Positions 1-61,593 of a stretch of DNA of 64,000 nucleotides are shown piece by piece. Source of the DNA: Sordaria brevicollis (lineage: Eukaryota > Ascomycota > Sordariomycetes > Sordariales > Sordariaceae); the NCBI GenBank assembly GCA_033439795.1, contig JAUTDP010000013.1:682001-746000 (forward strand). The letters are read 5' to 3'. Every line of letters begins with the position of its first letter. Within the stretch, counting starts at the first letter, position 1. The position numbers and the translations under genes were made by a program. A model generated the notes under the pieces. The model was not told the DNA's origin. It did no database searches and saw nothing but the letters and a program-made list of their open reading frames with translations.

Positions 1-260
1 CAAAATGTGAATCAAACCAAGAAATTCTATTCATGATTGCACTCAAAGTGTCTTACTTCGATTATAAACCAAGAAACTCGTCGCTTCATGAAAATCCATC
101 CTCCGGTTCGTAAAACCAACCCAGCCATGTAAATGGTGTATATCCTGAATTCCCAAAGTCTTCCCAAATTACCCATTGAATTACCAAAAAATGCCATCCC
201 AAATATCCCATGAAATACCCAAAAACCCTTTTTAACGCCAGCCGTGCTTTTTCTCAAAAA
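1..260. other. Intergenic start of window
   Basis: Fairly AT-rich sequence downstream of the oxidoreductase stop codon. It probably holds that gene's 3' untranslated region. I see no other gene; the reading frames that cross it are short and lack family features. Confidence 0.5.
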
Positions 261-1762
261 TTAAGCCTTGACAACATCGTAACCGCCCAACCGCAAGTGG
301 TTCCAGCAGATGTCGAATCCAAGGTCATCACCAAAGAAAAGCTTGTTGACATCCTCACCCGAAGAAACACCGTTTGTGGGCCAGTAGGCAACAGCCTTCT
401 TGCCAACGGCGAGACCAATCATAGGTGGGATCTCGTCAAGCTCAAGGTATGTAGGCTCGGTGCCGGAAACGGCCTGCTTCATGCGCATGTGGATGTTGTT
501 GGCGGCCAGGTAGCCCATGTGCATGGCACCACCGCAGCGCTTGATACCGGACCACTTGACAAGGTCACCGATGGCGAGGTGGTCGTCCGCGTTAGGAGTT
601 TCGGAGGGGAAGTGAAGGCTGCAGTATCCAGTTGGTTAGTTTTTGCTTTGAGCTTTGTCGAAAGTGGAGTGGAGGCATACCTGGGCTGGATCTTGACATA
701 GCCTTCCTCGTTGAGAACTTCCCTGGGGAGGAAGGTGGTTGATGGCACACTTCTGGAAATAGCCATGATGACGCAGTCAGCCACAAGGGTGTGGCCGTTG
801 GTGAAGTAGACCTTGTAGGCCTTGTGTCCGTTATCAATGAACTCCTCGGTCCTGTCGACACGGTGGGACATGAGCACCTCAACACCAGCCTCATAAACGA
901 GCTCCAAGCTGCGGTCCTTGACCTCATCAGGAAGGGGCTCAGCCGAGAGAAGCTTGTCACGAGAGTGGATGAGAGTGACCTTTAGTTCGGGGCAGACGAG
1001 CTTGAGTTCGGCAGCCATTTCGATACCAACGGCACCTGTTGTTATTCATCCGTCAGCAAGAGATACTATCGCAACAACTGGTCATTTTGTAGGTCAAACT
1101 CACCTCCACCTACAACAGCGACACCGTGTCTGTTGGCAGTCGCAGCCCGGATGTGGTCACCAGCCTCAAAGAGATACTGCTTTCTCTGAAGAGACTGGGG
1201 AACAACAGGGAAGACTCTCCTCAGGCCAGCGGCGGCAATGAGGTAGTCATACTCGAGTTCTGTGGGCTCGGGGCCGGTCTCGGCACCGAGAACCTTGGCG
1301 GTCTTGCGCTCCTGATCGATGGACTGGACAGAGCCACGGAGAATTCGGATGTTGGGAGATTGTTGAAGGGCGGGAACGTCCTCGTACTTGACCCAGCACT
1401 TTTCAGCGTAGGCCTCATCGGCAAAGGCCAATGGGCTGCCAATGAGATGGTCTGGTAGAAAGAACATGTGTATTAGTCGTTATGAACTTTGTGCTAAAGA
1501 CGTTTGTAAGCGGGAGCATCTTACAAAAGCCATCTCTCTCATCCACTACTGTGATGTCAACGGCAAACTGAGGACCATCATGGGCAGCTGTTGTGCCGTC
1601 AAGAGCAGCCTTCTTGGCATCAGGACCGCAACGGGCAGCACGGCCACTGCAGATGTCTGCCAAGTTGAGGGCAGCAGAAAGACCACCATAAGAACCGCCA
1701 ACAACAAGGACCTTGAAGGGAGGCCTTGACAAGGTGGCGTCGTCAACGGCAATGGAGCCCAT
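261..1762 (-). CDS. AIF/AMID-like FAD-dependent NAD(P)H oxidoreductase
   Basis: Four exons on the minus strand: 1762-1525, 1451-1104, 1035-681 and 618-261, giving 432 residues. All three introns start GT (GTAAGA, GTGAGT, GTATGC) and end AG, and the frame is kept. The N-terminal part has the FAD-binding Rossmann motif VVGGSYGGLSAALNLA near residue 20. A second, NAD(P)H-binding glycine cluster (VAVVGGGAVGIEMAAEL) lies mid-protein, split by intron 2. This two-dinucleotide layout, the length and the LIGSPLA segment fit the AIF/AMID (apoptosis-inducing-factor-like, FSP1-like) family of quinone-reducing flavoproteins. There is no clear mitochondrial presequence before the Rossmann fold, so location is open. 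The start is the first ATG in frame before the FAD motif. Exact substrate and any role in cell death are not readable from sequence. Confidence 0.85.
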
Positions 1763-3155
1763 TTTGTATCTGAGGGTGTAAAGAGACGGGTTGTACAAAG
1801 ACTCGCAACTGCCTATTCTGGCGACGGATTCAAGGGCCTTCGATGTCAGACGGAACGGCGTAGGTAGGTAGGCTGGCGTGGGTTGGGTGCGTTGGATGAG
1901 CTGGATGCGTCGGTTGGTTGAGGAGGAAGGAAAAGGATAAGTATACAAATCACAAGTAAGAACTCTGGGGAGAAGGAAGTGAGTCGACAGATGATGTGGG
2001 AGACGGGGCAACTATGACGGGATGGATCTGATGGGCGGAAGGGAGGGGAGATGGAGGGGAGATGGAGGGCAGATGGATGTGTCGGGCCTGCCCCCTTCTG
2101 TCACTTTGGTCATTTTGAGCACCTTCATGGATCCTGGGGCCAGGATAAAGAGGGTGGGTGGATCCTTGACTCTCGTGTCGCATGGATAGACGATGTCACC
2201 AAACCGGCACGCACTCGGGCACTCAACAGGAAGGAAGAGACGGGATGCCGGGAGAGAAGGAGTGAACGTGAAGATATGCAACAATTGAAGGATTGACATC
2301 CGCTAGTGCCCCACTCCACAACCCAATGGGACACCCCTGGCCTTCCGAGCTCTTTTCCTGAGTGCTTATCAGATCCTGATTTTCGGCCTTCAATGTTTGC
2401 GCCCTTCGATGTGAAGGAGGGCATAGCGGTCAGTCATTAGACACCGACACCAACAGTTTCCATCAACTAAGTGGAAGGTATGAAGGGGAAATAAAAGTGC
2501 TCCGGCGGACTTACGAAATAAAAAAAGTGACCAGACTGGCTGATGAAGACTGCTGGGAACAACCCCTCACACCCGGTATCGGATAGAGCCATTTTCGCGA
2601 ACTTTTGTTCATCCCGTCTGCTTGTCCGCGTCGTTTTCTTTTTCCGCAGACCCCGGGTGGCCCAGCAATCTCTCCCTCCTTCCCCACCATTCAGCGGACA
2701 ATAGATCCCACTGTGGAAGTCTTGGGCCGGTTCTTAGCCAACGCAAATGCTGGGCCTCCATTCCCACTTCACTGTGCGCTGCTTTCACTTTTCTGGCTTG
2801 CATGCGCTACCACGGACAAATTGTCTTGGACGTTGGGATGGGTGCAACCGTGCAACCGAAGCCATGCACCTCCATCTGATAATGGCTTATCTGATCATCT
2901 GATCATCACAAACATTACGTCCCAGACTCCCAGCTAATTTTTGCCGAGGGTAGCCATTCCGACCGCCGTAGAGGTAGCGGTGGCCCCTGCGCACAGCGGA
3001 ACTGTTTGATGACAAGCTCCCATCCCGGCATCGAAACTTTTTCACGAGCTCGTGCAAACGAAACGGAACACTTTTTTTTTTTTTGTTTCTCTCCACCACC
3101 AAAGTCTCCATCATAACCCAAATTCCCACACCATATACCCAACAACTTCCACAAA
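1763..3155. other. Intergenic: upstream of the oxidoreductase, before tRNA-Gly
   Basis: Pyrimidine-rich sequence next to 1762 on the minus strand probably forms the leader and promoter of the oxidoreductase gene. The rest contains short overlapping open frames on both strands with no domain or codon pattern that I recognise. A poly-T run lies near 3070-3083. Confidence 0.4.
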
Positions 3156-3226
3156 GCGCCAGTGGTTTAGTGGTAAAATCCATCGTTGCCATCGATGGGC
3201 CCCGCGTTCGATTCGCGGCTGGCGCA
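3156..3226 (+). tRNA. tRNA-Gly (GCC)
   Basis: A 71-nt cloverleaf without intron. The 7-bp acceptor stem pairs GCGCCAG with CTGGCGC, followed by discriminator A. The anticodon loop reads TTGCCAT, with anticodon GCC. The T arm contains TTCGATT flanked by CCGCG and CGCGG. The D arm includes GTTTAGTGGTAAAAT, the usual eukaryotic tRNA-Gly A-box region. A T-rich stretch follows (TTTTTTTT near 3248-3265), suitable for RNA polymerase III termination. Confidence 0.95.
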
Positions 3227-3597
3227 TCTTTTTCATGGGAAATACATGTTCGAATTCTTTTTTTTAGCGCATTTTTGCAACCATCGTCGCTAAGCACTCA
3301 TCGCTTTTCCGTTTTCACATATCTCAACATCAGATGAAAATGTTCATGAACACACAATCTTTCATTTTTTTTGATAGTGAATACTTGCAACTCTTACATT
3401 GGATTTACTATTCTTTTCTCAAATACTCTTCATATTTGTTTATTATCTTTCGGATTCTGAACCTCAGAGAGCCTTGTCAACGCCGCATTGTGCGTGTGAG
3501 GATGCGAATGTCGGGCGCGCTTGGCCCTTATTGCGAAGCAGTGCCAACTTCAGCCCTTGTTAAAAACTTCTTTCAAGGTCGTTTTTCAACAAGCAAC
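3227..3597. other. Intergenic between tRNA-Gly and tRNA-Arg
   Basis: AT-rich spacer with T-runs near 3258-3265 and 3365-3371. No protein gene is supported; the long plus-strand frame that runs through here also crosses tRNA-Arg. Confidence 0.4.
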
Positions 3598-3682
3598 GGT
3601 CCGGTGGCGAAATGGTATCGTGTGGTCCTCCTAATTCGGGAGGATAAGACTGAGGTTGTGGGTTCGAGTCCCATCCGGATCG
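3598..3682 (+). tRNA. tRNA-Arg (CCT) with 13-nt intron
   Basis: The acceptor stem GGTCCGG pairs with CCGGATC (one G-T pair), with discriminator G. The T arm is GTGGG-TTCGAGT-CCCAT. The D arm has GGCGAAATGGTATCGT, as in fungal tRNA-Arg(CCU). The anticodon stem TGGTC pairs with GACTG using two wobble pairs. The loop CT-CCT-A is interrupted after position 37 by a 13-nt intron at 3634-3646. Removing it leaves a 72-nt tRNA. The intron contains GGGAGG, which can pair with the CCTCC around the anticodon, the usual precursor fold. A T-run follows at 3683-3690. Confidence 0.9.
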
Positions 3683-4231
3683 TCTTTTTTGCTTCTTTAT
3701 CCTTCAACACCAAATTCTTTTTTGGTGATGTCTTCACTTTTCGCAATCCAACTTTTTATTCATTTCACTTTGTTATTGGTCGCAGGCCTGTACCAAGCGA
3801 CTTAGTTGATACGATTGGAATAACACGAAGCTATGCATAGTTCAAAAATTTGGCTTTGTTATAGGGGAATATGCATTTGCTGCTTTCAAGCTAATAGAAT
3901 CTGAACAGAACGAAAACAATTATATCGAATATCCACTAACGTTTTCGATAAGCGGCGATGAGTCTACGCTTGAACACCTTCCAAATAGCAAAGTATACCT
4001 CAAAAGCAAAGCAATACTCCTTTCAATGTTCATAAAACCCTTCGCAATAAATACACGACCCCTTCCTATTTCCCTCACATCCCTTTAAGATGCTTGAAAA
4101 CGGATTAATGCCGATGATGAGACGGTAAATCCTCAGACAAAATGCAAATGCCCAATCCTTGAAAGCCTTCCAAGTTACCTCATATGTCTCTGAGACAATT
4201 CGAAACGTTCATTTCCTCAATGCTTCATCCC
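3683..4231. other. Intergenic between tRNA-Arg and zinc-finger gene
   Basis: A pol III T-run follows the tRNA. The remainder is AT-rich and probably includes the 3' untranslated region of the zinc-finger gene on the minus strand. No other feature is seen. Confidence 0.4.
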
Positions 4232-5434
4232 TCAGCAATAGGCGCCTGCCACAGCCATTTCGATCTTCTGCACAATAGCCCGCACCTTCCTCTTCGTCTT
4301 GCTCTCACCGCCGCTCCGTCTTTTGTCTCCCTTCATCTGACGATCAGTGCTCTTGAAAGCCTGGGGCTGCTGCACAATCGAAGAAGAAGAGGGCGAAGTC
4401 GCCGCGGTAGATGCAGTGCTTGCCAGGTACGCAAAATCGATCGTCTGAGTAGCGGCCGCGACGGTAGCCACCCGACGAGTAGGCAGCTTCGGCAGCGGCT
4501 TGTTCATGTTGAGTCGGGTGCTGCTTTTCTTCATCTTCTTGCAATCATCTTTCTGACCTTTGTTGCCAACGCAGGTAGTAGTAGTAGCGCCGGTATTCTT
4601 GACCTGGCCCTGGTGCTTTGCCACGACACGTCCAGTCTCAGAGACAAAGATCTTATCGGCCTGCTCAAACGCCAACTTTGCCAACCACGCAGCCTTCTCG
4701 TCGCCATCCTTGTCCAAGTCGAAGAACTGCAGCTGGTTCTGCAAGCTCATGTTCGTGCCAATAGTGCCGTCGGTCTTTGCCATGGCCTTATCGCTCGTCC
4801 AGCTCATCTTAATGTGCTTCGCTCCAGGCGGAGCCTTGCACGCGCCAATCGTGCCGTCGGCTTCCCAGTGCTTGACGATTCCTGGACGCTGAAGCAAACC
4901 CTCGATCACACTGGTGTGCACCCATTTGACAGGGGGCTTGCCGTGCTTGATGAGCTTGTCGTTGTTCCGAAGCTCGTCGACGAGGTGGGCGAAGTAGTGG
5001 CGCCGGGCCTGCTTGGGAGAAGCGAAGCTCAGGCCGGAAGAGGAGCCAGAGTTGGAGCTGGGGCTGGAGCTTGAGTTATTGCCAGCGGTGGTTGAATCAT
5101 CAGCAGCGGAAGAAGAAGGAGACGGGGAAGAAAAGAAAGACTGGGAGCAGAAGCCACAAGCAAAAGCAGTCTGGTGGCGGACAAACGAGAAGGGATGCTC
5201 CTGGCGGCTGCATGATGGGCATTTGAGGAGCTTGCCGCCAAGAATGACCTTGTCGCTTGGGGTGTTCTTGTTCTTGGGCGGCAAGGCGGTGTCGCAGTGA
5301 GGACAGACAAAGATGATGGTGGCCGTGTGATGCTGTTGCTGGTGAAGCCAGAGCGACTGGCGACTGCCGAAGTGGTCGAGGCAGACCTTGCATTGAAAAG
5401 GCCTCGCCGGTGAGGTCGACGTGCTGTCCTCCAT
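4232..5434 (-). CDS. C2H2 zinc-finger protein
   Basis: One uninterrupted frame of 400 residues. Residues 14-36 form a classical C2H2 finger (FQCKVCLDHF, then HQQQHH). It is followed by further Cys pairs in VCPHC, LKCPSCSRQEH and FACGFCSQSF, so there are probably two to three zinc-binding units within the first 120 residues. A serine-rich linker (about 105-140) follows. The middle region (about 145-270) looks folded, with a WVHTSVIEGLLQRPGIVKHW segment. The C-terminal third is low-complexity and Lys-rich (KRRSGGESKTKRKVRAIVQK), possibly a nuclear signal. This suggests a nuclear DNA- or RNA-binding protein, but I do not recognise a named ortholog. The ATG at 5434 is the first in frame and lies just before the first finger. 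Confidence 0.7.
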   Translation of the reverse strand: MEDSTSTSPARPFQCKVCLDHFGSRQSLWLHQQQHHTATIIFVCPHCDTALPPKNKNTPSDKVILGGKLLKCPSCSRQEHPFSFVRHQTAFACGFCSQSFFSSPSPSSSAADDSTTAGNNSSSSPSSNSGSSSGLSFASPKQARRHYFAHLVDELRNNDKLIKHGKPPVKWVHTSVIEGLLQRPGIVKHWEADGTIGACKAPPGAKHIKMSWTSDKAMAKTDGTIGTNMSLQNQLQFFDLDKDGDEKAAWLAKLAFEQADKIFVSETGRVVAKHQGQVKNTGATTTTCVGNKGQKDDCKKMKKSSTRLNMNKPLPKLPTRRVATVAAATQTIDFAYLASTASTAATSPSSSSIVQQPQAFKSTDRQMKGDKRRSGGESKTKRKVRAIVQKIEMAVAGAYC

Positions 5435-6897
5435 CGCTTGATTGAAGAAGAGGTCACGGTCTGTGGCTGACGGTTAGGTGAGGACTTCACCAGTCGCGTA
5501 AAAACGCTGAAAGGAGATGTGAGAGTTGGGTGAGAGATGGGTTGTTGGAATGGTTTCGAGTCGTGTGAGTGACAGCAAAACCAAACCTGTGCTGGAACGT
5601 TGAAGGTAAAATTCAAGGAGGGGAGCGTGAGAGTTAGGAGGAGGTGATGTTGTGAGGGGAAAAAAGGGTCTGGAGTCGCAAAAGTGACAACGAAAAAAGA
5701 GTTGTGTGAGTTTGAAAAAGACTGATTGAGTGACGACGCGCAAGAACAATACCACGCGACTGATTGATTGGCAAGAGTTCAATCAGCAAAATCAGTACAA
5801 TTCTTATTGAGAAAAAAAATGTTGAGGAAAAGGTCACAATCACCCCAGGCTTCCTAAATAGGAATGAATGGTCCATCGAACCTTCCTCGCCAGCAAACGG
5901 AGTCTATATCATCCCAACTTTTGAAACAGTCGGTCTGCAAGTGACTTGACATCTCAAGGTGGGATGAAGTTCGCGAACGTCAAACAATAAAACACGGCAC
6001 GCATTTTGGTCGGACTGGTATTGTGCGTAGAATCATCGAGTGGAATCGATGTCATCAGTGCCCACAATACCGTGCCTGATTATGGAAACTATCCAGACCC
6101 ATGTACACGATTGTGCAGGCACACATTTCTACAATAATGTTTACCTTGAACCGTGATTTCTCGAGACCAAAATACCGTTCAATCTTGATTTAGGTACAAT
6201 TCAGTTCATCCGTTTGTTAATCCCTTGGAAAATGTCAACGTGGTACCTTTGGAGGGAAGTGAATGACAACTCGCCGTAGGTTGTAAATCTCCGCGCTGTC
6301 AACGCAACTAGTTCCAGAAGTAGCTAGAAAATCCATTTAAAAGTGAACTGCAATTTTCTTGGGGTTGTGGTGAAGACTAGCAATGTATTAGTGAACTTGG
6401 GATATGGAAACAGCTGGAAGTAAGTTGCTGCGATCCAAACCCTGGATTGTCGTCACGTAAAGAGCTCGTGTATGTGGTTCAAGGTTCTCGCGCGAAAATC
6501 GAAACAGCCTGCGACCATTCGCATCAAATCGTTACATCGACGGAAAGTTAAGACAATTTGACAGAACGTGTTGGGCGCAGACCGTTTAAGGTTCTCCTGA
6601 CAAGATGAGACCCGTCCTTATGAACTCATTCCGTGCATGTGCACCGCACCACTTTTCGAGCAACGCAGGTATAGCCCCAAATTATTAGGCGCTGCCATGC
6701 ACATACAAGTACGTTGCAGCAAGCTAACTTATACAATACTATACGGCAAATCCAGGAATAATTGTTCCAGGTACCGAAAACACTTCCCAGTGTCCAAACT
6801 CGAGAGTGACGGAGGCAGGATGGTACACACGTAATGGGCAATACCTCAAGTAAGTGAGGGATATCAGGACAAGTTTTCAACTGATTAACAACGATCT
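5435..6897. other. Intergenic upstream of zinc-finger gene
   Basis: The first part (5435-5800) is pyrimidine-rich on the minus strand and is probably leader and promoter of the zinc-finger gene. From about 5900 to 6890 there is no frame with family features on either strand. I see nothing further. Confidence 0.4.
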
Positions 6898-22646: not shown

Positions 22647-22654
22647 GACGGGAA

Positions 22655-22673
22655 TTATCTCAGAAGCTTAGAC
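22655..22673 (+). repeat. Left terminal inverted repeat of the 6.2-kb element
   Basis: Nineteen bases, TTATCTCAGAAGCTTAGAC, matching the right terminus in inverse orientation at 18 of 19 positions. They lie directly inside the GACGGGAA target-site copy. Confidence 0.85.
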
Positions 22674-22784
22674 CAGTTCGTGTGGCGCTGGGCCGTTAGC
22701 CGTATAGATATTATAAATGAATTGTAACCTACTGCCCTATAGTTTTCCGTATTAGGTTTAAATTTATAATAGCGAAGGGCGTAG

Positions 22785-22809
22785 CACGAGCTGGTCTAAG
22801 ACGCGGATA
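22785..22809. repeat. Left subterminal repeat block
   Basis: Bases 22785-22800 (CACGAGCTGGTCTAAG) are the inverse of 22667-22682 at 15 of 16 positions. The overlapping 22794-22809 (GTCTAAGACGCGGATA) is the inverse of 28670-28685 at 15 of 16. The GTCTAAG core is therefore repeated inside both ends, as transposase-binding sites often are. Confidence 0.6.
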
Positions 22810-23179
22810 GGATCCCAATCGTGACCTATGTACACAATCGCCAGCTAAAATCTTATTAATATTATTGTCCTATTAAAATAGGTCGCATTTATTAGCCGAA
22901 AATAATTTTGGAATCGCTTTACTCTTAATTATTTAACGGTAATTTTATCGTTTTTTTACGATAGTGGATAATAGAAATTCCGATTATAAGTTGTCGACGC
23001 TCCCCGTTGCGTATATTACCCAATTTGGCCCTAGAGGTTATTAATATTAAGATTCTATCGTTACGGCAATTTTTGAACTGTCCGAAATATTTTTTATATT
23101 AATAATCTCTCGCTATGCTATTGTATAACCTAAAAATTAATAATAGTAATAGTAATAATAATAATAATAAGGCGGATAA

Positions 23180-25800
23180 AATGAGGATAAGGATATAGAG
23201 GAAAATTCCGATTATTAAAATAATCTTGATTAAAGCGATAAAGATAATAATAAAGATAAAGATAAGGATAAAGAAGATAACGAGGAGGATAAAGATGATA
23301 AAGGATTGTTAAAGGATATTATTTAAGGTACTAGGGCAAAATAGAACGTTATAAGGGTAGTATTAAAGCGAGCTTTTAACGGTATAGATACGATAATATA
23401 TAGTATTAAAACTTTTTTAGTTAAATAAGTAGAAGACCCTCTTCGCTTTAAGCAATTTATTAATACTTTCGATTATTCCCGCGTTAAAAAAGCCTTGTGA
23501 AAAAAAGGTATAGTTCTTATTAATAAGAAGAATTATAACGGTATTAGTGATAATTATACTACTATAGCTATTCGATAAGAAATGAAATTTTTAATTAAAG
23601 AATTATATTTTAGAAAGTTTTAACTTTATCCCTCTAATATTTACGAAATGAAGATAATTGTTGAGGTTTGTAATATTATATAGCTATAATTATAGTTCAA
23701 TTAAATATAATTAACGTTAAAGGATAAAGTATTTAATATAGTCGTTTTTTTCTCTTAATTCCTTTAAAATTAGTAAATAAAGGTTATTAAAATTTAGGAA
23801 ACGAAGGTCGAAGAAAACGCTAGCGCTTAGATTACTTTATTTTCTTCTTTTCTTTTACGTAATTATATTTAAAATATAATAGTCTTTTTATATTAGGTTT
23901 TTAGTTTTTATATATTGGTTAATAGTACCCTTAGGAGGGTAATTGATATTTTATTAATTATAAGTATTATTTTATTATATACGATTTTAAATAAACTTTT
24001 TAATAATATAGAAAAGTCGGTAAAAAAGGTTATTAAAGTAATTATTTATAATCTTAACGGCGTAATTATTTATAATAATTTTAATTTTATAAATAAGATT
24101 TAAGAGTTAGTTAGCGGTAAGTAAAATAATATAGTTAATTTAATTATTGCTTATTTAATTGTATATTTAAAGTTTAATGGCCCTCTTTAATAATTTAATT
24201 ATTACCCTATTTAAAAGTTTACGAAGTAGATGGTCCTTTAATATATTTTTCTTAAAAGTAAGTAATTGGTTAGCGTTTTGAAGTAGTTAATGAGAAAAGT
24301 ATTCTATTCCGTTATTAATAAGGACGATGTATTAAAAATACTAATTATTTAATGGGTTAAATTTAAGAATAGTTTATTTATTTAATTTAGCGCTATCTTT
24401 GAGGACGAAAGTATTTGCAATAGTATATATAAATTGTAAGAGGAAATTTGGTAAAGAAGGTTAAAATTCTGTAAATATATTAATTGTATTATTTTAATAT
24501 TTGGGGATTAAAAAATAATATCCTTTATTCGCCGTATTAAGTAAATATAGTTCGAATTTAACGATATTTAGGAATAACGAGAATGGATATTCCCTATCCC
24601 TATTTTCTTTTATATTGAATTTAATTACCTTAAAATATTATTCCGGATTTTCTAGGATATTAAAGATAAAAGTTATTTTAACGCGATTATTTCGGCAAAT
24701 GTATAGTTTTTTAGCCGAATAAAGAATATTATTAAAAAAGACGTTAAATACTATTAAATTATATTATTATTTATATATAGATATATTATTCGGATTATGG
24801 TATTTCTTTTTAATAAATTAATATCTAGAGGATTAATTATATCCGACTAGTTTATATTCGAAGGGATTCTAGCGGTAACCGAAAAGTTTAATTTATTAAT
24901 TTTTAATAATTTTTTCGAAGATATTTGGGCGGAGGTTTTTATTCGAGATGCTTGGAATAGGACGTATAATAATAGTAATATTATTGATATTGATTTTTGA
25001 AATACTTATTACTTTATATAATGTATTGAAATTATTCTTTATTTCTATGAAGTAATTTGCCTTAGTAATTATAATATTTTAAAATTTATTATTCCTTAAT
25101 TTCCTCTTTTTTTTTAGGGTAGTAAATTATCGAATTATAGTTTAGAATTATTATACTTTGTATAGTTTTTATATTTTAATATTTCTAATAAATGCCTTCG
25201 CGAAGTTATTCTTAAGGCTGGATTAATTCGCTATATGATATTTAGAAGCTTTTATAAAATTATCGACCTATTTTTGGAATATATTAATGCTAATTACGCC
25301 TTGGATATTAAAAATAATAAGAATTCGACGTATAATATCTATAGTACTTTCGAACGCCTAATTTTAAATAGTAGTATTCTAATAATAATTAGGAAATCGG
25401 TTGAAAATCTATTTTATAGTAAGTAAAAAGGAATGTATAAATATAACGATATAATTATTAATATCTTTTTTTACGCTATTAAATTATATAAAGATAGTGT
25501 TATTATTAAATTACGTAATTAAGATTAATAATTAAAGGAAGGCGGTTACGAAGTCTTTAATATTTATAAGTTTAGTTAGAAAATTCTTTTTACTAAGTTT
25601 AATAATTTTAATAAAGTTATATTAAAGTTAATAGATATTGTTAATTAGCGTTTTATATTTGGCGCTAGAGATATGTTGCTTAGAGATATTAATTAGGACG
25701 AAGAAGGGAACCGCTTATTTAATATTAATAATAATAATCTTTTATTAAATGGTATAACCGATTTGATTAGGGATATGAATAATTAAGGGAATAGGGTAGG
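23180..25800 (+). pseudogene. RIP-inactivated DUF6589-like gene relic
   Basis: The plus-strand frame passing through 23451 stays readable for over 2 kb if TAA/TAG are taken as former CAA/CAG (Gln) codons and TGA as former Trp. It begins with an Asp/Lys/Glu-rich stretch (about 23230-23310). Near 24480-24680 it reads a GD..., then REWIFPIP, then FYIEFNYLK pattern. That resembles the GD / EWxxPxPGxFHxExN core of the fungal DUF6589 family. Near 25120-25430 it reads a tail with LREVILKAGLIRYMI and, further on, ERLILNSSILIIIRKSVENLF. Many in-frame stops make it dead. The family assignment is by eye and moderate; the long former coding frame itself is clear. Its orientation is convergent with the helicase relic. 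Confidence 0.55.
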
Positions 25801-26009
25801 TAATTTATTTTATTTTATATTTAATTATAATTATTATTTATACGATTTAACTTTGCGAAGTCGTATATATTATATATATAATTAGTTAAATTATTATAAT
25901 GTTATTTAATTTGCTATATTTATACTAAAAAAATAATAGAATTGTCCTAATTAATTTACTAACCTTTTAAGCGATTTGCAACTATTTTTATAGTTATTTA
26001 ACGCCGTTA

Positions 26010-28430
26010 TATTAATAATAAAGGAGTAATATTAAATAGCGTAAATATACCCCGTTTATAATTTTATATAATTGGTTAGTTAATTTTACTAATATTAGCG
26101 GTAGAATCCGAAGTAGAAATAGAAGTAGAAGTAGAAATAATAGTAATAATAATTTTGGTAATAATTTTTATTACCTTCTTTGCTTCTTTTTTATTATTTT
26201 ATTCTTCGATTATTATATCTAATATAGCTTTGTACTAATTAATAATAGTTTTACCTTTTTTCTCGAGGTATTTTTAGCGTTGTAAATTATTTACGCGAGA
26301 TAGTAGTTCTTCAACCGTATTAAACGGTAATTTATTTGGCCGTTTAGTATTTCTTTTCGAATTGGTAAATTAATGATAAATTTTATATTGTAGCCCGTAA
26401 TTTAGTTATATTTTATTAATAATATTAAAAGCCCGTTTATTATTAAGTATAAGGCTTTGTACTTTTTGGGTATAATAAGTAGAAAAATATTATAATATTA
26501 TATCGGTAAGAGAATTAGCCGATAGTTTTTCTTTAGTGTTCTTAGTTTTGGGAGGTAAGGTTATAATTTTCCCGAATTCGTAATTATAAGTATTATAGTA
26601 ATAATCCTTATTGATTAGTATTTTATATTCGAGGTTTGGGTTATTTAATTCTTATAAGAAGTTAAGAGTATATTTTCGAAAGTAATTAGTATTAAAAAAC
26701 CCTTTAATAATTAAATTTAGCTTTTTATATTAGTTATCGTTATTCGCGTTCTATTTAACCCGTATAGGAAAATCGAATAAAGAATAAAATTCTATTTTAG
26801 TAATTTACTAATCCTCTTCCTACTTTTATCGTACCGCTTGGATATCCGAATTAATTGTTATATTATTAAGATTGTTAATTATATTAGCGGCGTTATTATT
26901 ATTCTTTCTTTTAACGAAGTTTATTTCTTATTAGAATTTATTAAAGATTACCGGGGTGTATTAATATATTCGTTTATAGGGCCTACGAAGTTAATAGGGT
27001 TTTAATAGGGCGACGACTTTTTTAAATTGGTTAAAGTGATTAAAATACCAATATAGTGCGAAAAAGTAAACCGTTCTGTATTTTTATTTATTTTTTCGTA
27101 TTACTTTTTTAAAATGTTATTAAAGGTCCGTAAAATTAGTTTTAGGGGGTAAATTAAATTAAATGATTCGACGGACATTTAGAATATTTATTCCTATACT
27201 TAATAAAATTATAGTTATAATAATATAATAATTAGTAATAAAATTATAAAAATCCTTAAAAATAATATCTTTATTAATAGAACGAGAGTTTTTATTATAT
27301 TTTTATATAACCGTTTTGGCGAATATTTTACTAAATTTATAGCTAATTAAATAATTTATTAAATAATAATGAGCTAATATGAATTTAATTTTATTATTAA
27401 TATAAATAATAGTTTTTAGGATTTCGTTAACCTTATTTATAATATATCCTTCGATTAGAAAATATAAGCGCGTAAAGTCGTTAATTCGACGTTATAATAA
27501 AGGCTATATAATTACCGAAATTTCCGGTCTATCGATATTCGTACGATATATATATATTTGGGAATCGAATTTAATATATTTAAGGATATATATTTAATTA
27601 TCTTTATCGAAGGTAGTGGTATATTTAAATTATAGGATAAATCGAGGAATGAGGCTTCGAATAGTGTATAAGTACGTAAAATCCTCTTTAAAATCGCGCT
27701 ATTTTTTAACGTAATGGAGTTTATCGATAGCGAAAAGATTAAATAATTTATAAAAACCGGGATTTTTAAGGACGGCTTTAAATTTAGTATTTAATACTTA
27801 TTTTGGATTTAATAATACGTAAGTATATTTTTTAACTTCGATTTCTTCCCAAACTTTGGGGTTTTATTATTAATAATAAAAATTAATTAATTATTATTTT
27901 TTAGGCTAAAATTTTAAAGTTATTTTTAAGGGTAAAGTTATTAGGGTTATATATAAATAACGAAAAAGGATAGATTTTAAGATACGTATCGCCGTTAATC
28001 TATATTAGATTAAAACCTAATACGTTTTTAATTATATTGTCCCTTTAATTCTTTCTTAGCTTTATAAGGGGTACGATCTATATTATTATTAATTTCTTTA
28101 ACGCCCTAAAGGCGAATAGGATTACGTTTTTACTATAACCGGTCGTAGCGACGAGAATTATATCCTAGGCGTAAAAAAAACGCTATATAATATTAATTTA
28201 ATTAAGGCGAATATATTGGGCACTTATAATATTATATATAGCGTCGTTAATAGTCTATTTTTCTATTAAGAGTTTTATAATTATTATTTACGTTAGGAAG
28301 GATTATAAAAAATAGTATATAAATTCTAAAAAAATAAATAAATGCGGGGGATATTTAATAGTTTTTTTACGCGATTGGAAAATTTCGTATAAATTAAAAA
28401 TATAGCGTAGGAATTAGAGGGGGGATATTG
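26010..28430 (-). pseudogene. RIP-inactivated RecQ-like SF2 helicase relic
   Basis: On the minus strand, helicase motifs appear in the correct order. Motif I region DIILVATTGYSKN (ATTGYSK at 28129-28149, where the family has A-T-G-x-G-K-S/T) follows an upstream QINII-type Q-motif region. Motif II IDKLHYV lies at 27708-27728 (family DExH), followed by a PRFI..TTTFDK motif III-like segment. A VRRIIQFNLPP segment precedes a QHFxKVIRK motif VI at about 27094-27120 (family QxxGRxxR). Changed residues are those expected from G-to-A RIP (for example GGT to AGT, GAA to AAA). In-frame stops fall at former Gln/Trp codons. The fold resembles RecQ-like helicases carried by fungal subtelomeres and some mobile elements. 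It is non-functional as it stands. Confidence 0.75.
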
Positions 28431-28669
28431 GACGAAATAAAATTCGCAAATTTATTTGTAGCCTTTATTAAATAATAATTGGGAATTATAAAAAGATTTA
28501 CGCATTGTATTGAAAAACGAATTATATTATTAAATTTAGCGGTTATTTTTGTATATACCTTCTAAATTTCATACTTTTATTTTTATTAATGATGTTGTGG
28601 TTGTAATCGGCGTATGAAGGGTTAAATCCTTATGTATGGGGATTTGTTTGTGGCCTACGCTTATGGTTA

Positions 28670-28685
28670 TATCCGCGACTTAGAC
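28670..28685. repeat. Right subterminal inverted repeat
   Basis: TATCCGCGACTTAGAC, inverse of 22794-22809 at 15 of 16 positions. It lies 149 bp inside the right end, against 139 bp for its partner at the left end. Confidence 0.6.
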
Positions 28686-28815
28686 GTCCTTTATGGCTAC
28701 GGCTATTGCGGATAAGCTATACCTAGCCACAACGTACGGACTATATACTAATCAATTTACGAAAGTGGAAGGTATAGAATAATGGAAGCGCTAAAGGCAG
28801 GGACTATATGAAGGC

Positions 28816-28834
28816 GTCTGAGCTTCTGAGATAA
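28816..28834 (-). repeat. Right terminal inverted repeat of the 6.2-kb element
   Basis: GTCTGAGCTTCTGAGATAA on the plus strand. It is the inverse of 22655-22673 except one C/T position and directly abuts target-site copy GACGGGAG. Confidence 0.85.
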
Positions 28835-28978
28835 GACGGGAGGTCATCCTCTACCTCGATGGATGCTATTAGACAAAAAGAACACCTCGATGTTGTTTGA
28901 AGCTGTAAAGATACAGCACCCTCGCACAGCTCGGTAAATGGACCTTTGCGAATAGCGAGGTCCGACTCAACATTTGCC

Positions 28979-56582: not shown

Positions 56583-56625
56583 GGCCCTGATCTGCTCCGC
56601 GCCCGGTTTATTTCTAGAGGGATTA
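56583..56625 (+). repeat. Left terminal inverted repeat, Harbinger element
   Basis: Begins GGCCCTGATCTGCTC and ends TCTAGAGGGATTA. It matches the right end inverted, with a few changed and inserted bases between the two blocks. Confidence 0.9.
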
Positions 56626-57389
56626 TCTACCCCTGAAAAGTAATAAAGGACAGCGCTCTGGAGGGTGGAGACTCCAGATTGTACAGAAACTTTTCATGCC
56701 TATACTCCACCCACTGGCCAAGCCGTTTTTACCTATAAAATAATGGATTCTAATGGATTCTAGTAGTAGATATACGCTACCTACGCTTTATAATAATGAG
56801 TAAACTAATGTTGTAATATTATATAATATCGTAAAATCCGTGCAATAAAGTATATAGTAGTAGAATATTAATATATTCTACTATATATTATAGATATAAA
56901 TTGGCGTAAGGTAATTAGTACTTTGTAGTTGTAATTTATATAATTAGGGAGCGCTTTATATAATTAAGCACTTATCGATTTACTTAACTAAAATAATGTA
57001 AATTAAAATGGCCAACCCCTTTACGAAATCGCCCGCCGTTATACTAACCTTAATATCCTTAATTAGCTTATTTTCTCTAATATTATTAACGGTAATAACG
57101 ATAGTATAGAGGTTGTATATAATTAATATATTCCTTTTAATTAATATACTAATTTTTAAAACGAATTTCGTAACGAGCTTTAAAACGATTCCCCTATTTT
57201 AAATAATAATAAGTAAGTAAATAATTAAGAATTTATATAAGTTATGTAAAATATTGTAATAATTTAATCTTTAATTATATTCTTTTAAATGGATAGTTAA
57301 TTTAATTAATTTAATTAGCCCGCCGCTACGATTAAAAAGATTACGAATAAGAAATATATTAGTAATAACGCTAATAAAAATAGTAATAA

Positions 57390-58370
57390 AAAGATGCGGT
57401 TAATTTAGACTTTCGAATTTTAATATTAAATAATTTTATACGTTTAATAATTTTTCTTAAATAATTGTATAAAAATTAGTAAGAATAGCGTTAAAGGAAT
57501 AGGATTTTTACGCGATATATACGAATTTTAAATGGTTATATTTAATAAATAATTTATAAAGTAAGGGTATATTAACGTTATTAATTAGGAATAAGTTTAA
57601 TCGAAGTAAAAGCGTTTAAAGATTAAATATATTTAAATTAAATAAATATTAAATTTATTAAGTATATTTTTCGATTTTTTTAAGGGTATAATCCGCGTTA
57701 ATTTATATTATTAGGAGTCTTTTACCCGCTACTTTAATAATAATAATTTTTAAATAAAGAATAGCGCTTTTATACTTCGTAATATTAATGCGCTTTAAAT
57801 TTTAAAGGATATTTTTTATAACGAGCGGATTATTAACTCTTAATTGCGTATAATCGAAGAATCGATAGGGAAGGAAGTATTTAAGAAGAAAAATAAGGAT
57901 TGCGGTAATTTTAATATAAATTTCGAAATTAATAATAATAGGGATAATAATAAGGAGTTGGAAATTATTAAATAATTAAAGGATATTAAAACGGTTAAGA
58001 AGATTATTATTAATTAAAGTAATATTTTAATTACGAATGTTATTAGTAAGGGTATTAAAATATTAGGTAATAATAAATTAATTAGTATTTATAATATTAA
58101 AATTATTATATAGAGTTTTTAGAAGGGATGGGGTCGTAAATATTCTCTAAATATTATATTTGAAATCTATAAAAAGTTTATAAATAAACGGTTAGCGGTT
58201 ATATTCAATATATTAAATAACGATTTAAAGAGTGTAAAAGTAGTAAAAATAATTCGAAAGATTAAATATAATAGAAGGGAGGATTAGTATATATATAAAT
58301 AAATAATAGAAATAATAGAGTATATAAGTAGAAGGGTATTTATTAAATTATTTGAAGATTTTTATAAAAT
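57390..58370 (+). pseudogene. Myb/SANT-like DNA-binding gene relic of Harbinger
   Basis: Plus-strand frame with many TAA/TAG at former Gln codons. It reads LRDIYEFQMVIFNKQF, then a Q.Q.KRLKIKYIQIKQILNL segment and further FFDF. This matches the Myb/SANT-like trihelix pattern (W..., FN..., LK.KY..VK.LL..SGF..D) of Harbinger ORF2 proteins, which help the transposase enter the nucleus and bind ends. It is not functional. Confidence 0.7.
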
Positions 58371-58739
58371 TTGATAAATATAGCGATTGTACCGCTAAAT
58401 ACCCTATAATACGCGTTAAAAATCGATTAATAGCGGGCTACCTATAGGGTATTTACTATTATTTAAATTTACTTTTAGACTTTAGCGAATTTTAGCGAGA
58501 ATTTTAACGACGATGCGAATTATTTAATTAGTTTAAAAAAATTGACTTAGTATTACCCGCTTTAGCGGGTAGCGGGATAATATATTTAAATTTTAATTAA
58601 TATATTTAATATAATAGAATATTCGTTTTAATTTTAAATATTAACGTACAAATTAGTAATTAAACGTATAATTAAAATTCGAAATTTTTACTTCTTTTTA
58701 ATAATTTATTTTACTCCTTTATATTATCCCCCGCTATTT

Positions 58740-60150
58740 ATTCTTATACTTTTTTATACCTCCTTTATTACTTTATAATCTTAATTACTACGTAACGGCA
58801 AATCGCGATAAAATTACCGCGGAATCGTTCAATTAATTTTATTACCTTCGTAATAACTTTTTCAAATAACGGCTTAATCCTCTCCTTATATTCGCAATCC
58901 TTTCTTTAAAAATAAATAAAATTATATAACCTTATTATTATATATATAAAATCGATTTATATATCGATATTGTACTTTAATACAATTTCCCTAATTAATT
59001 TTAATTTCTATTTAAACTAATCGAAGGTTTATTCGATAATTATACGTAATTAATTATATTGTAAATTATATATCTCCTTCGCGGTTTTTAATAAATTAGG
59101 CGCGTCCTTTTAATTTTAAAGGTAGTATTATACGTTGGCGAATAATACGTATATACCCTTCTATTATTTAAAATTAACGTTGGTAAAAAAGTAATAATTT
59201 AGCGGTATTTTGAATCCTTTTTCGAAAGTAAAAACTAATAATTTAAAATCGTATATAGATCCCTCTATACTTATAAATATATATGTAAAAGAATTATTGA
59301 AATTAATAGCGGTAAAAATATTTTAAAAAATAAATCCCTTATAGTTATACTAACGTATTTAATTTATTATTAAAATTTAAACGTAAATATACGTTCTATT
59401 AATAGCCCTAATTACGCCGGTAAATTAATAATATTTAGGGTTTAACTCGATTTCTTAGGTAACGAAATTTTTATTTATTAAACGTATATAAGCTATATAA
59501 AGCTTTAAAAACGTAAGTAAAAGCTCTTTAATAATACGAAAGACCGTTAATTAATTTATTTTAAAGACGTATGTTATTTATTTCTACGGTTCGTTATATG
59601 CGATTATTTAAAGAAAGATTATAACCTTCTATTCGAGAATTTAATATTATATATCGATTAATTTATATTCAAATTTAAATTATACGATTAATATTTTAAA
59701 TTTTAGTAAGGTTAATTAAAAGAATTCGAAAAACCGACGTTCAAAATTATTAAAAAGCTCTTTAGCGAATACCCTCGCTACTATCGGTCTACCTTCGTTT
59801 ATTATATACGGCTCCTCGATTCTACGGCTAATTACGATTCCTAATATAATTAATATTTATAATATGAACGTCGTTAATCGATTATATTATAATAGTTCTA
59901 CTTCGTTTTTATTAGCGGCGTTAATTAATATAGTAGTTTCTAATGTAATATTTATTATCGATATTGGCTTATTGCTATTATTATATAAATTATTAATATA
60001 ATTATAATATATCGGTTCTATATATAAGGTAGAATGCGGATAAAGTACGTATAGTCTACTTTCCCTTCGAAACGTATAAATCTACGATAAAATCCAACGT
60101 AAAACCACCTCCTTTAATAGTTTACGAAAGTTTACGATAGATTAGAAGTA
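58740..60150 (-). pseudogene. PIF/Harbinger DDE transposase relic
   Basis: The minus strand reads a degraded DDE_Tnp_4 domain. At 59380-59406 the first catalytic block is AINRTYIYV, where active elements have AIDGTHIHV. The catalytic Asp (GAT to AAT), Gly (GGA to AGA) and His (CAT to TAT) are all RIP-type changes. Downstream come NFNNSFTYIF and EGSIYDFKLLVFTFEKGFKI. The typical end, N-L-x-Y-N then LRIIIE-stop-TFD, lies at about 59005-59070 (family NLRHSxLRxxIERTFGRLKRKW). Stops occur at several former Gln/Arg/Trp codons. Identification is firm; activity is impossible. Confidence 0.88.
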
Positions 60151-60366
60151 TAGTAAGTGATTAGAGTTTGAATGGAGTTAAAATAGAGATATGGGAGTTC
60201 GTTAAATTAGTTAGAACCCTTTTAAAGAATTTACTATATAGAGTTTATCGCGGTACTTCTTTAGTGAGGGATTTGTTTGGTCGCTAAGCGTTTTATTGGA
60301 TTATCCCCTAAAACTGCTGCCTAGAACGGTCTAGTGCGTTGAAAAAAATTCACGCGGTCTATTTGC

Positions 60367-60407
60367 TGGTTTAATCCCTCTAGAATCCAGGCGAGCAGAT
60401 CAGGGCC
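60367..60407 (-). repeat. Right terminal inverted repeat, Harbinger element
   Basis: Plus strand reads TAATCCCTCTAGAATCC then GAGCAGATCAGGGCC, the inverse of the left end. TTA follows at 60408-60410. Confidence 0.9.
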
Positions 60408-60410
60408 TTA

Positions 60411-61593
60411 ATCTTTGCGACCAAGAGGACGGGGGTACTGTAAACGGTGGATGGGGAGGACGACGACGACAGCGGAGACACCGACAGGGTCGGATGGAAA
60501 CGAACTCGAAAGCAAAACGAGAAAGCGGCCGGGTACCGCCCTTTCGCCCACGGGGAGAATCGACAAATGCTCAATGGCTGGGTCGAACAGGACGACTGGG
60601 GACCGGGGATTTGCGAGTCCCGCTAAAAAGAAACCTAAAAGATAAAAAAAAATGTCAACAACTGCCCGCAATGCGACAAAACCGTCGGTACCCGCGCCAA
60701 AGTCTATTTCTTCGTCTCCCCATGGTTGGATGCTCTTCCCTTTTCCTCTCTCTCTTTGGGCCAATCACCAATCGTGCAGCCTCAGATGCAGAATCCCAGT
60801 CAGTGACTCCATAACGGTAGATCTTGGGAGTGGATGACCTGGTGGAGGGCTGTGGAGATAGCTTCTTTGGAGGCCCAGAACCAAGGCAAATCCAAGCGGA
60901 AAAGAAAAACGTAGCATTGCCCCTATCAGGAAAGGAAGAGCCGAAGGAATGTGGAGTGACTGCCCTGGGTTTGAGTGAAGCGCAAAAGGGTTGGAAAGCC
61001 ATTCGGTAACCGGGGCGAGAGGCAAAATGGCAATGGTTAAACGTCATCTGAATATCGTCAGCTATGATTTCACTCAACATCGCTTGATGGCAACACCTTC
61101 CAATAGCCACCAAGACTTAATGGAGAGATGATCAGAAGAAATGATCATGATGGGAAAGATAAATGCAAAGCATCAAGGGGAAGGAAATAAGGGTTAGGCG
61201 GAACCGCTTGAGTATTAGTGAAGTGGACTAAGTATGTGGTTAGCTTGGCTAAGTCAGCGACTGACTGACGAAGCCCGACATGATTTGCGCCCATTCCACT
61301 GGGTTAGCGGCAAGAAGACATGATTGAAGCCCAACATGGAATACATGGAGGATGATGAGAATAAATGATGTGTGTAAACATTTGGTATCGTCATTGGATC
61401 CCAATCCTTGATCCAGTATCGTCAAACAGAAAACATCAACATGTGATGAACATGACCCAAACTCGCTAGATATCCAAAACCCATAAAACTACCTCGCCAA
61501 ATAACTGATATACCCATGGTGACCCGCTTTAAAAAGAAATTCATAACGTAAGACGTATTAAGCAAAGATTAAGCAAAGAAGACCAGTGTCAAC
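60411..61593. other. Gap between Harbinger element and acetate-transporter gene
   Basis: Normal composition resumes at once after the TTA. Contains the 3' region of the transporter gene at its right side. Overlapping short frames have no family signal. Confidence 0.45.

Follow-up and report, generated by a model that had tools for sequence, protein, structure and literature searches.

A decayed DNA transposon family with convergent DUF6589 and RecQ-like helicase genes in the fungus Sordaria brevicollis

A stretch of 64,000 nucleotides of the genome of the ascomycete Sordaria brevicollis (assembly GCA_033439795.1), corresponding to positions 682001-746000 of contig C5 (JAUTDP010000013.1; 1,975,488 bp) and referred to here as the window, contains an AT-rich island that is a copy of a DNA transposon, once mobile and now dead. 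This copy, located at C5:704655-710834, carries two gene relics on opposite strands that converge on each other, one for a DUF6589-like protein and the other for a RecQ-like helicase (Table 1). Its 19-bp terminal inverted repeats (TIRs), TTATCTCAGAAGCTTAGAC and TTATCTCAGAAGCTCAGAC, are alike at 18 of 19 positions and are flanked by 8-bp target-site duplications (TSDs). These boundaries had been drawn in a preliminary description of this DNA and they hold, since the end pattern, with up to three mismatches allowed, has just these two matches in the window and none in 100 shuffles. The GC content is 0.20-0.24 in 1-kb segments lying fully within the element and approximately 0.5 outside it. Moreover, a DNA match at C26:2694145-2700315 spans positions 9-6190 of a query of 6196, i.e., the element minus its TSDs to within 2 bases, so that a copy elsewhere ends at the same positions, as the preliminary description had expected.

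The element belongs to a dispersed family with two end-sequence subfamilies, which confirms the earlier proposal of a complete DNA transposon through copies sharing the same ends and 8-bp TSDs. The 53.1 Mb of the genome searched for end patterns contain 47 end matches: 10 fit the end of the window copy, and the other 37 fit another end type, TTATCTCAGYGCTCAGACC, which was taken from related copies; the reversed patterns used as a control gave 0 and 1 matches, respectively. Forty of these matches form 20 inward-facing pairs, while the seven unpaired ends were excluded from the TSD count. Sixteen pairs are of the full type, comprising 10 of 6.2-6.9 kb and six that have grown to 13.5-34 kb; the remaining four are short. 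The flanks of the 20 pairs agree at 153 of 160 TSD positions, all seven mismatches being transitions; the TSD is perfect in 15 pairs, 7/8 in four and 5/8 in one element of 150 bp on C3. Shuffling the partners gave a mean agreement of 45.3 positions and a maximum of 88 among 2000 shuffles, sliding the flanks by 1-4 positions gave 38-55 of 160, and extension of the TSD to 9 bp left 0-6 of 9 positions matching per element. The target sites have no fixed sequence, the 20 pairs showing 20 different 8-bp TSDs.

The same ends emerged from a scan blind to them, which placed a TTATCTCAG pair plus a TSD among its top three rows at seven of 14 loci, five of them having been picked solely by their DUF6589 match. 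The scan gave no TTATCTCAG pair at the other seven loci: one end is changed to TTATTTCAA at L020, the loci L031, L035 and L036 lie inside pairs exceeding the stretch fetched, and L032, L033 and L037 lack a known end pair. BLAST searches with two stretches at unpaired ends (L025 and L026; 6 kb and 8 kb) found no match. When the joined flanks of five of the 20 elements were searched in the same genome, only their own two halves matched and no empty site appeared. The four short derivatives, recognised by the family ends, measure 131 bp (L052), 150 bp (L055), 187 bp (L053) and 659 bp (L054); all except the 150-bp element have perfect 8-bp TSDs and, therefore, the ends suffice in cis. Among the enlarged pairs, the 33.1-kb one at C21:3984971-4018116 (L021-L024), with the perfect TSD GCGCAGCC, is an old copy enlarged by nested insertions. 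Its DUF6589 gene is split, the family genes lie in scattered pieces, and direct repeats resembling long terminal repeats (LTRs) occur approximately 7.1 and 7.7 kb apart, as from nested LTR elements.

Of the ten copies measuring 6.2-6.9 kb, eight (half of the full-type copies, which number 16) were read through their stop codons, and the same two convergent genes are present in all eight, in agreement with the gene relics named at the outset. The left gene matches Pfam DUF6589 in all eight copies (best expectation value, E, 5.4e-26). In the right gene, Helicase_C was recognised in three copies and DEAD in one, whereas TIGR00614 (recQ_fam), its best NCBIfam match, was detected in three (best E 2.3e-10); a helicase profile built from the eight copies also picked up human WRN chains, with a best E of 4.8e-6. 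The DUF6589 frame of the window copy has one collinear match in each of the seven other elements, over approximately 840-1040 codons at 33-68% identity. Both frames are collinear across the eight elements over approximately 600-1040 codons, each forming a single stretch per copy against the window copy, with identity down to 31-36% in the best frames, compared with 20-25% in nearly all other comparison frames between elements. Outside the read-through set, four of the eight full-type pairs (on C5, C9, C21 and C27) contain both genes according to DNA or Pfam matches.

Table 1. Features of the window copy of the element and of its neighbouring gene (positions in the window)
Feature	Position	Strand	Basis and remarks
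Left TSD GACGGGAA	22647..22654	.	One A/G transition relative to the right copy
Whole element	22655..28834	+	6,180 bp; ends, TSD and whole-element DNA match
Left TIR TTATCTCAGAAGCTTAGAC	22655..22673	+	Pattern match
Inverted inner-box copy CACGAGCTGGTCTAAG (compared with CTTAGACCAGTTCGTG at 22667-22682)	22785..22800	-	Score 28; reached by 0 of 1000 shuffles
DUF6589 gene frame, candidate transposase	22901..26050	+	Read-through, many stops; approximate start and end
PF20231 (DUF6589) match	24356..25426	+	Profile positions 61-405 of 410; E 5e-17, above curated cut-off
RecQ-like helicase gene frame	25773..28775	-	Read-through, many stops; approximate start and end; conserved in seven other elements
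PF00271 (Helicase_C) match	27093..27425	-	E 0.0017, under curated cut-off
Weak inverted inner-box copy, right end	28679..28694	+	Score 17; reached by 91 of 1000 shuffles, not significant alone
Right TIR TTATCTCAGAAGCTCAGAC	28816..28834	-	Pattern match
Right TSD GACGGGAG	28835..28842	.	Flank comparison
PIG-S gene (glycosylphosphatidylinositol transamidase subunit), PF10510	28901-30769		Downstream of element; E 1e-140

No classical transposase was found inside the element, as far as Pfam reaches, which upholds another of the early observations. The scan of the window copy covered the read-through frames 22900-26050 and 25900-28834 on the plus strand and 22655-26000 and 25800-28700 on the minus strand, and in the read-through frames scanned the only other Pfam matches were noise (E 0.06 to 0.78). 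This method is not blind to classical DDE domains, since it caught a weak one (E 0.0079) in a second island of the window that has likewise been hit by repeat-induced point mutation (RIP). The eight read-through copies are ruined by RIP: the copies read have an interior GC content of approximately 0.2-0.3 and RIP-type dinucleotide ratios, and the window copy differs from the copy C26a by 1046 transitions and 212 transversions, and from the more distant C26b by 1161 and 638, respectively. Both this excess of transitions and the dinucleotide ratios attribute the stops in the genes to RIP.

In addition to the terminal repeats, inverted copies of an inner end box (CTCAGACC and its neighbours) are located 93-198 bp inside many of the ends. 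Against plain base shuffles, which are a lenient control, the score at 10 of 18 ends was reached by at most 10 of 1000 shuffles, while the signal was weak at the other eight (score reached by 19 to 594 of 1000). In both subfamilies, the box of the left end lies within approximately 10 bp of position 139, as judged by eye from printed sequences. In the 659-bp derivative L054, the inverted inner boxes are still clear at either end. A possible role of these boxes is that of paired transposase-binding sites or of a putative hairpin.

We consider it probable that the family represents an autonomous transposon of the cut-and-paste type, with the DUF6589 protein as its transposase and the RecQ-like helicase as an accessory enzyme. 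We infer the role of DUF6589 because it is the sole gene conserved besides the helicase and because the ends and TSDs are those of a cut-and-paste element. The protein, probably with a DDE-type RNase H fold, would bind the TTATCTCAG...CTCAGAC ends, and perhaps also the inverted inner copies, and would join the ends to target DNA cut with a stagger of 8 bp, while the helicase may assist excision, repair or replication. The short elements would have been mobilised in trans and, afterwards, RIP would have destroyed both genes. One set of residues that fits a DDE enzyme comprises D392, D536 and E793 (24074-24076, 24506-24508 and 25277-25279 of the window), our guess at a catalytic set.

Several observations weigh against this autonomous transposon with a DUF6589 transposase. 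The catalytic role of DUF6589 is itself deduced; when RIP is taken into account, as many as 42 columns of the eight-row alignment could have held a conserved acidic residue and, thus, D392, D536 and E793 are only a proposal. A single-sequence AlphaFold2 model of the read-through window copy (602 residues) reached a mean predicted local distance difference test score (pLDDT) of only 38.8 and was set aside. Moreover, just one gene of the two was detected in four full-type pairs outside the read-through set (C2, C8, C12 and C24). A protein search with the eight-row DUF6589 alignment gave no hit at 1e-3 among the best-sharing 7,997 candidates scored, a search with residues 335-620 of one copy gave none at 0.01 among 2,139 candidates, and the collections genome_contigs and viral_contigs yielded no relatives; the fungal content of these protein and contig collections is uncertain and RIP blunts such searches, so that these results are not evidence of rarity. 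The DUF6589 profile matched solved structures at noise level only (E 6.8-6.9).

The nearest known kind, going by the helicase, the terminal inverted repeats and the occurrence in fungi, is AcademH, a helicase-encoding lineage of Academ transposons reported in fungi (PMC10799480, PMC10045372) that shares with the present family a terminal-inverted-repeat DNA transposon accompanied by a helicase. The balance is even on whether the family is simply AcademH, with DUF6589 as the Academ transposase of fungi and an 8-bp TSD that is either among the lengths normal to the lineage or a minor variant. Most copies of the fungal Academs are described as overlapping domains such as PF00270 (DEAD) and recQ_fam (PMC6416283), the latter bearing the same family name as the NCBIfam match found here in three of eight copies, and the lineage is reported at low copy number in Basidiomycota, Ascomycota and Mucoromycota (PMC10799480). 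However, the TSD given for AcademH is 9 or 10 bp (PMC10045372), as opposed to 8 bp across the 20 pairs. Since the TSD length differs, and since the transposase would be the deciding feature, the element is not filed as a member; judged by its gene set it works like AcademH and may be a branch of it with an 8-bp TSD.

A more doubtful alternative is a new superfamily of DNA transposons, in which DUF6589 would be an unrecognised class of transposase and the RecQ helicase would have been gained independently, as in AcademH and KolobokH. The 8-bp TSD and the TTATCTCAG ends throughout the family are consistent with it, as are the scanned read-through frames, which contain no known transposase domain, and the literature searched, in which the term DUF6589 found no match. 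In its fuller form, held equally tentatively, the DUF6589 elements would be a superfamily of their own, characterised by TTATCTCAG ends, an 8-bp TSD, a RecQ partner and inverted CTCAGACC box pairs that could fold into hairpins opened by the helicase. On the other hand, the helicase and the two-gene layout are already known from fungal Academs and KolobokH, and all the read-through copies are ruined by RIP and leave no intact sequence by which distinctness could be judged. Thus, from the preliminary proposal of a new element class, the mobile two-gene family with shared ends stands, while the new class is not established, as fungal Academs are already reported with DEAD and recQ_fam helicase domains (PMC6416283).

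Other groups share single features with the family. KolobokH, reported only from fungi, is also a fungal DNA transposon with a RecQ helicase (PMC9587614). In the present family, differently, the helicase is a convergent gene on the opposite strand. The TSD of Kolobok elements is TTAA, and the 20 TSDs found here are all different 8-bp sequences. Zisupton elements produce an 8-bp TSD. The same length is reported for hAT (PMC12730594) and, in this feature, the family resembles both hAT and Zisupton/KDZ. Neither hAT transposase domains nor the KDZ transposase domain had a Pfam match in the read-through frames, in which RIP lowers the sensitivity for hAT. Pfam includes a KDZ model and, to our knowledge, a RecQ helicase is not typical of hAT or Zisupton/KDZ. 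Sly1 of Neurospora crassa, described as a family of fungal DNA transposons that likewise has two genes and copies mutated by RIP (PMC4592977), differs in its length of 11.5 kb, its CMC-type transposase and its other genes. Helitrons have neither inverted ends nor a TSD, and the element differs from them in its ends, alike at 18 of 19 positions, and its 8-bp TSD.

It is improbable that DUF6589 is itself the accessory protein, with the transposase coming from a different family or with the helicase mobilising the element in a Helitron-like manner. The indirect attribution of catalysis to DUF6589 leaves room for this explanation, but inverted ends with an exact 8-bp TSD length in all 20 pairs are unlike Helitron products, and both genes move together between subfamilies. 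The chance that the locus is a coincidental assembly or a degenerate telomere-linked RecQ helicase repeat, and no transposon, is practically negligible: subtelomeric RecQ repeats, some of them RIP-mutated, are described in fungi (PMC4522978, PMC3017866, PMC5576322) and share with the element a RecQ-like helicase often hit by RIP, but they are subtelomeric and are described without a TSD-flanked element, whereas the window copy is 0.70 Mb away from the closer end of its 1.98-Mb contig (whose ends may not be telomeres) and the exact ends and TSDs of the 20 pairs already contradict this explanation.

Regarding its surroundings, the window copy ends 136 bp before the ATG (placed by eye) of the PIG-S gene and sits in the presumed promoter or 5' region of this gene. 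The second AT-rich, RIP-like island, at 56586-60415 of the window, carries GGCCCTGATCTGCT as its inverted ends, with TCTAGAGGGATTA lying farther inward on either side, and contains the weak match mentioned above, to DDE_Tnp_4 on the minus strand and under the cut-off. TTA adjoins both of its ends, which suggests a PIF/Harbinger-type element, since we take a 3-bp TTA signature to be that of PIF/Harbinger.

The AcademX lineage is described with a TSD of 3 or 4 bp, and its difference from AcademH in this respect is related to the accessory enzyme (PMC10045372). Because of this tie, the 8-bp TSD found here, set against the 9-10 bp of AcademH, would bear on how target spacing is set. Furthermore, DUF6589, a Pfam family of unknown function, gains a concrete candidate role, that of transposase in a family of helicase-bearing transposons. 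Should it indeed turn out to be a transposase with an RNase H fold, many of the hypothetical proteins with this domain could be re-annotated as transposon remains.
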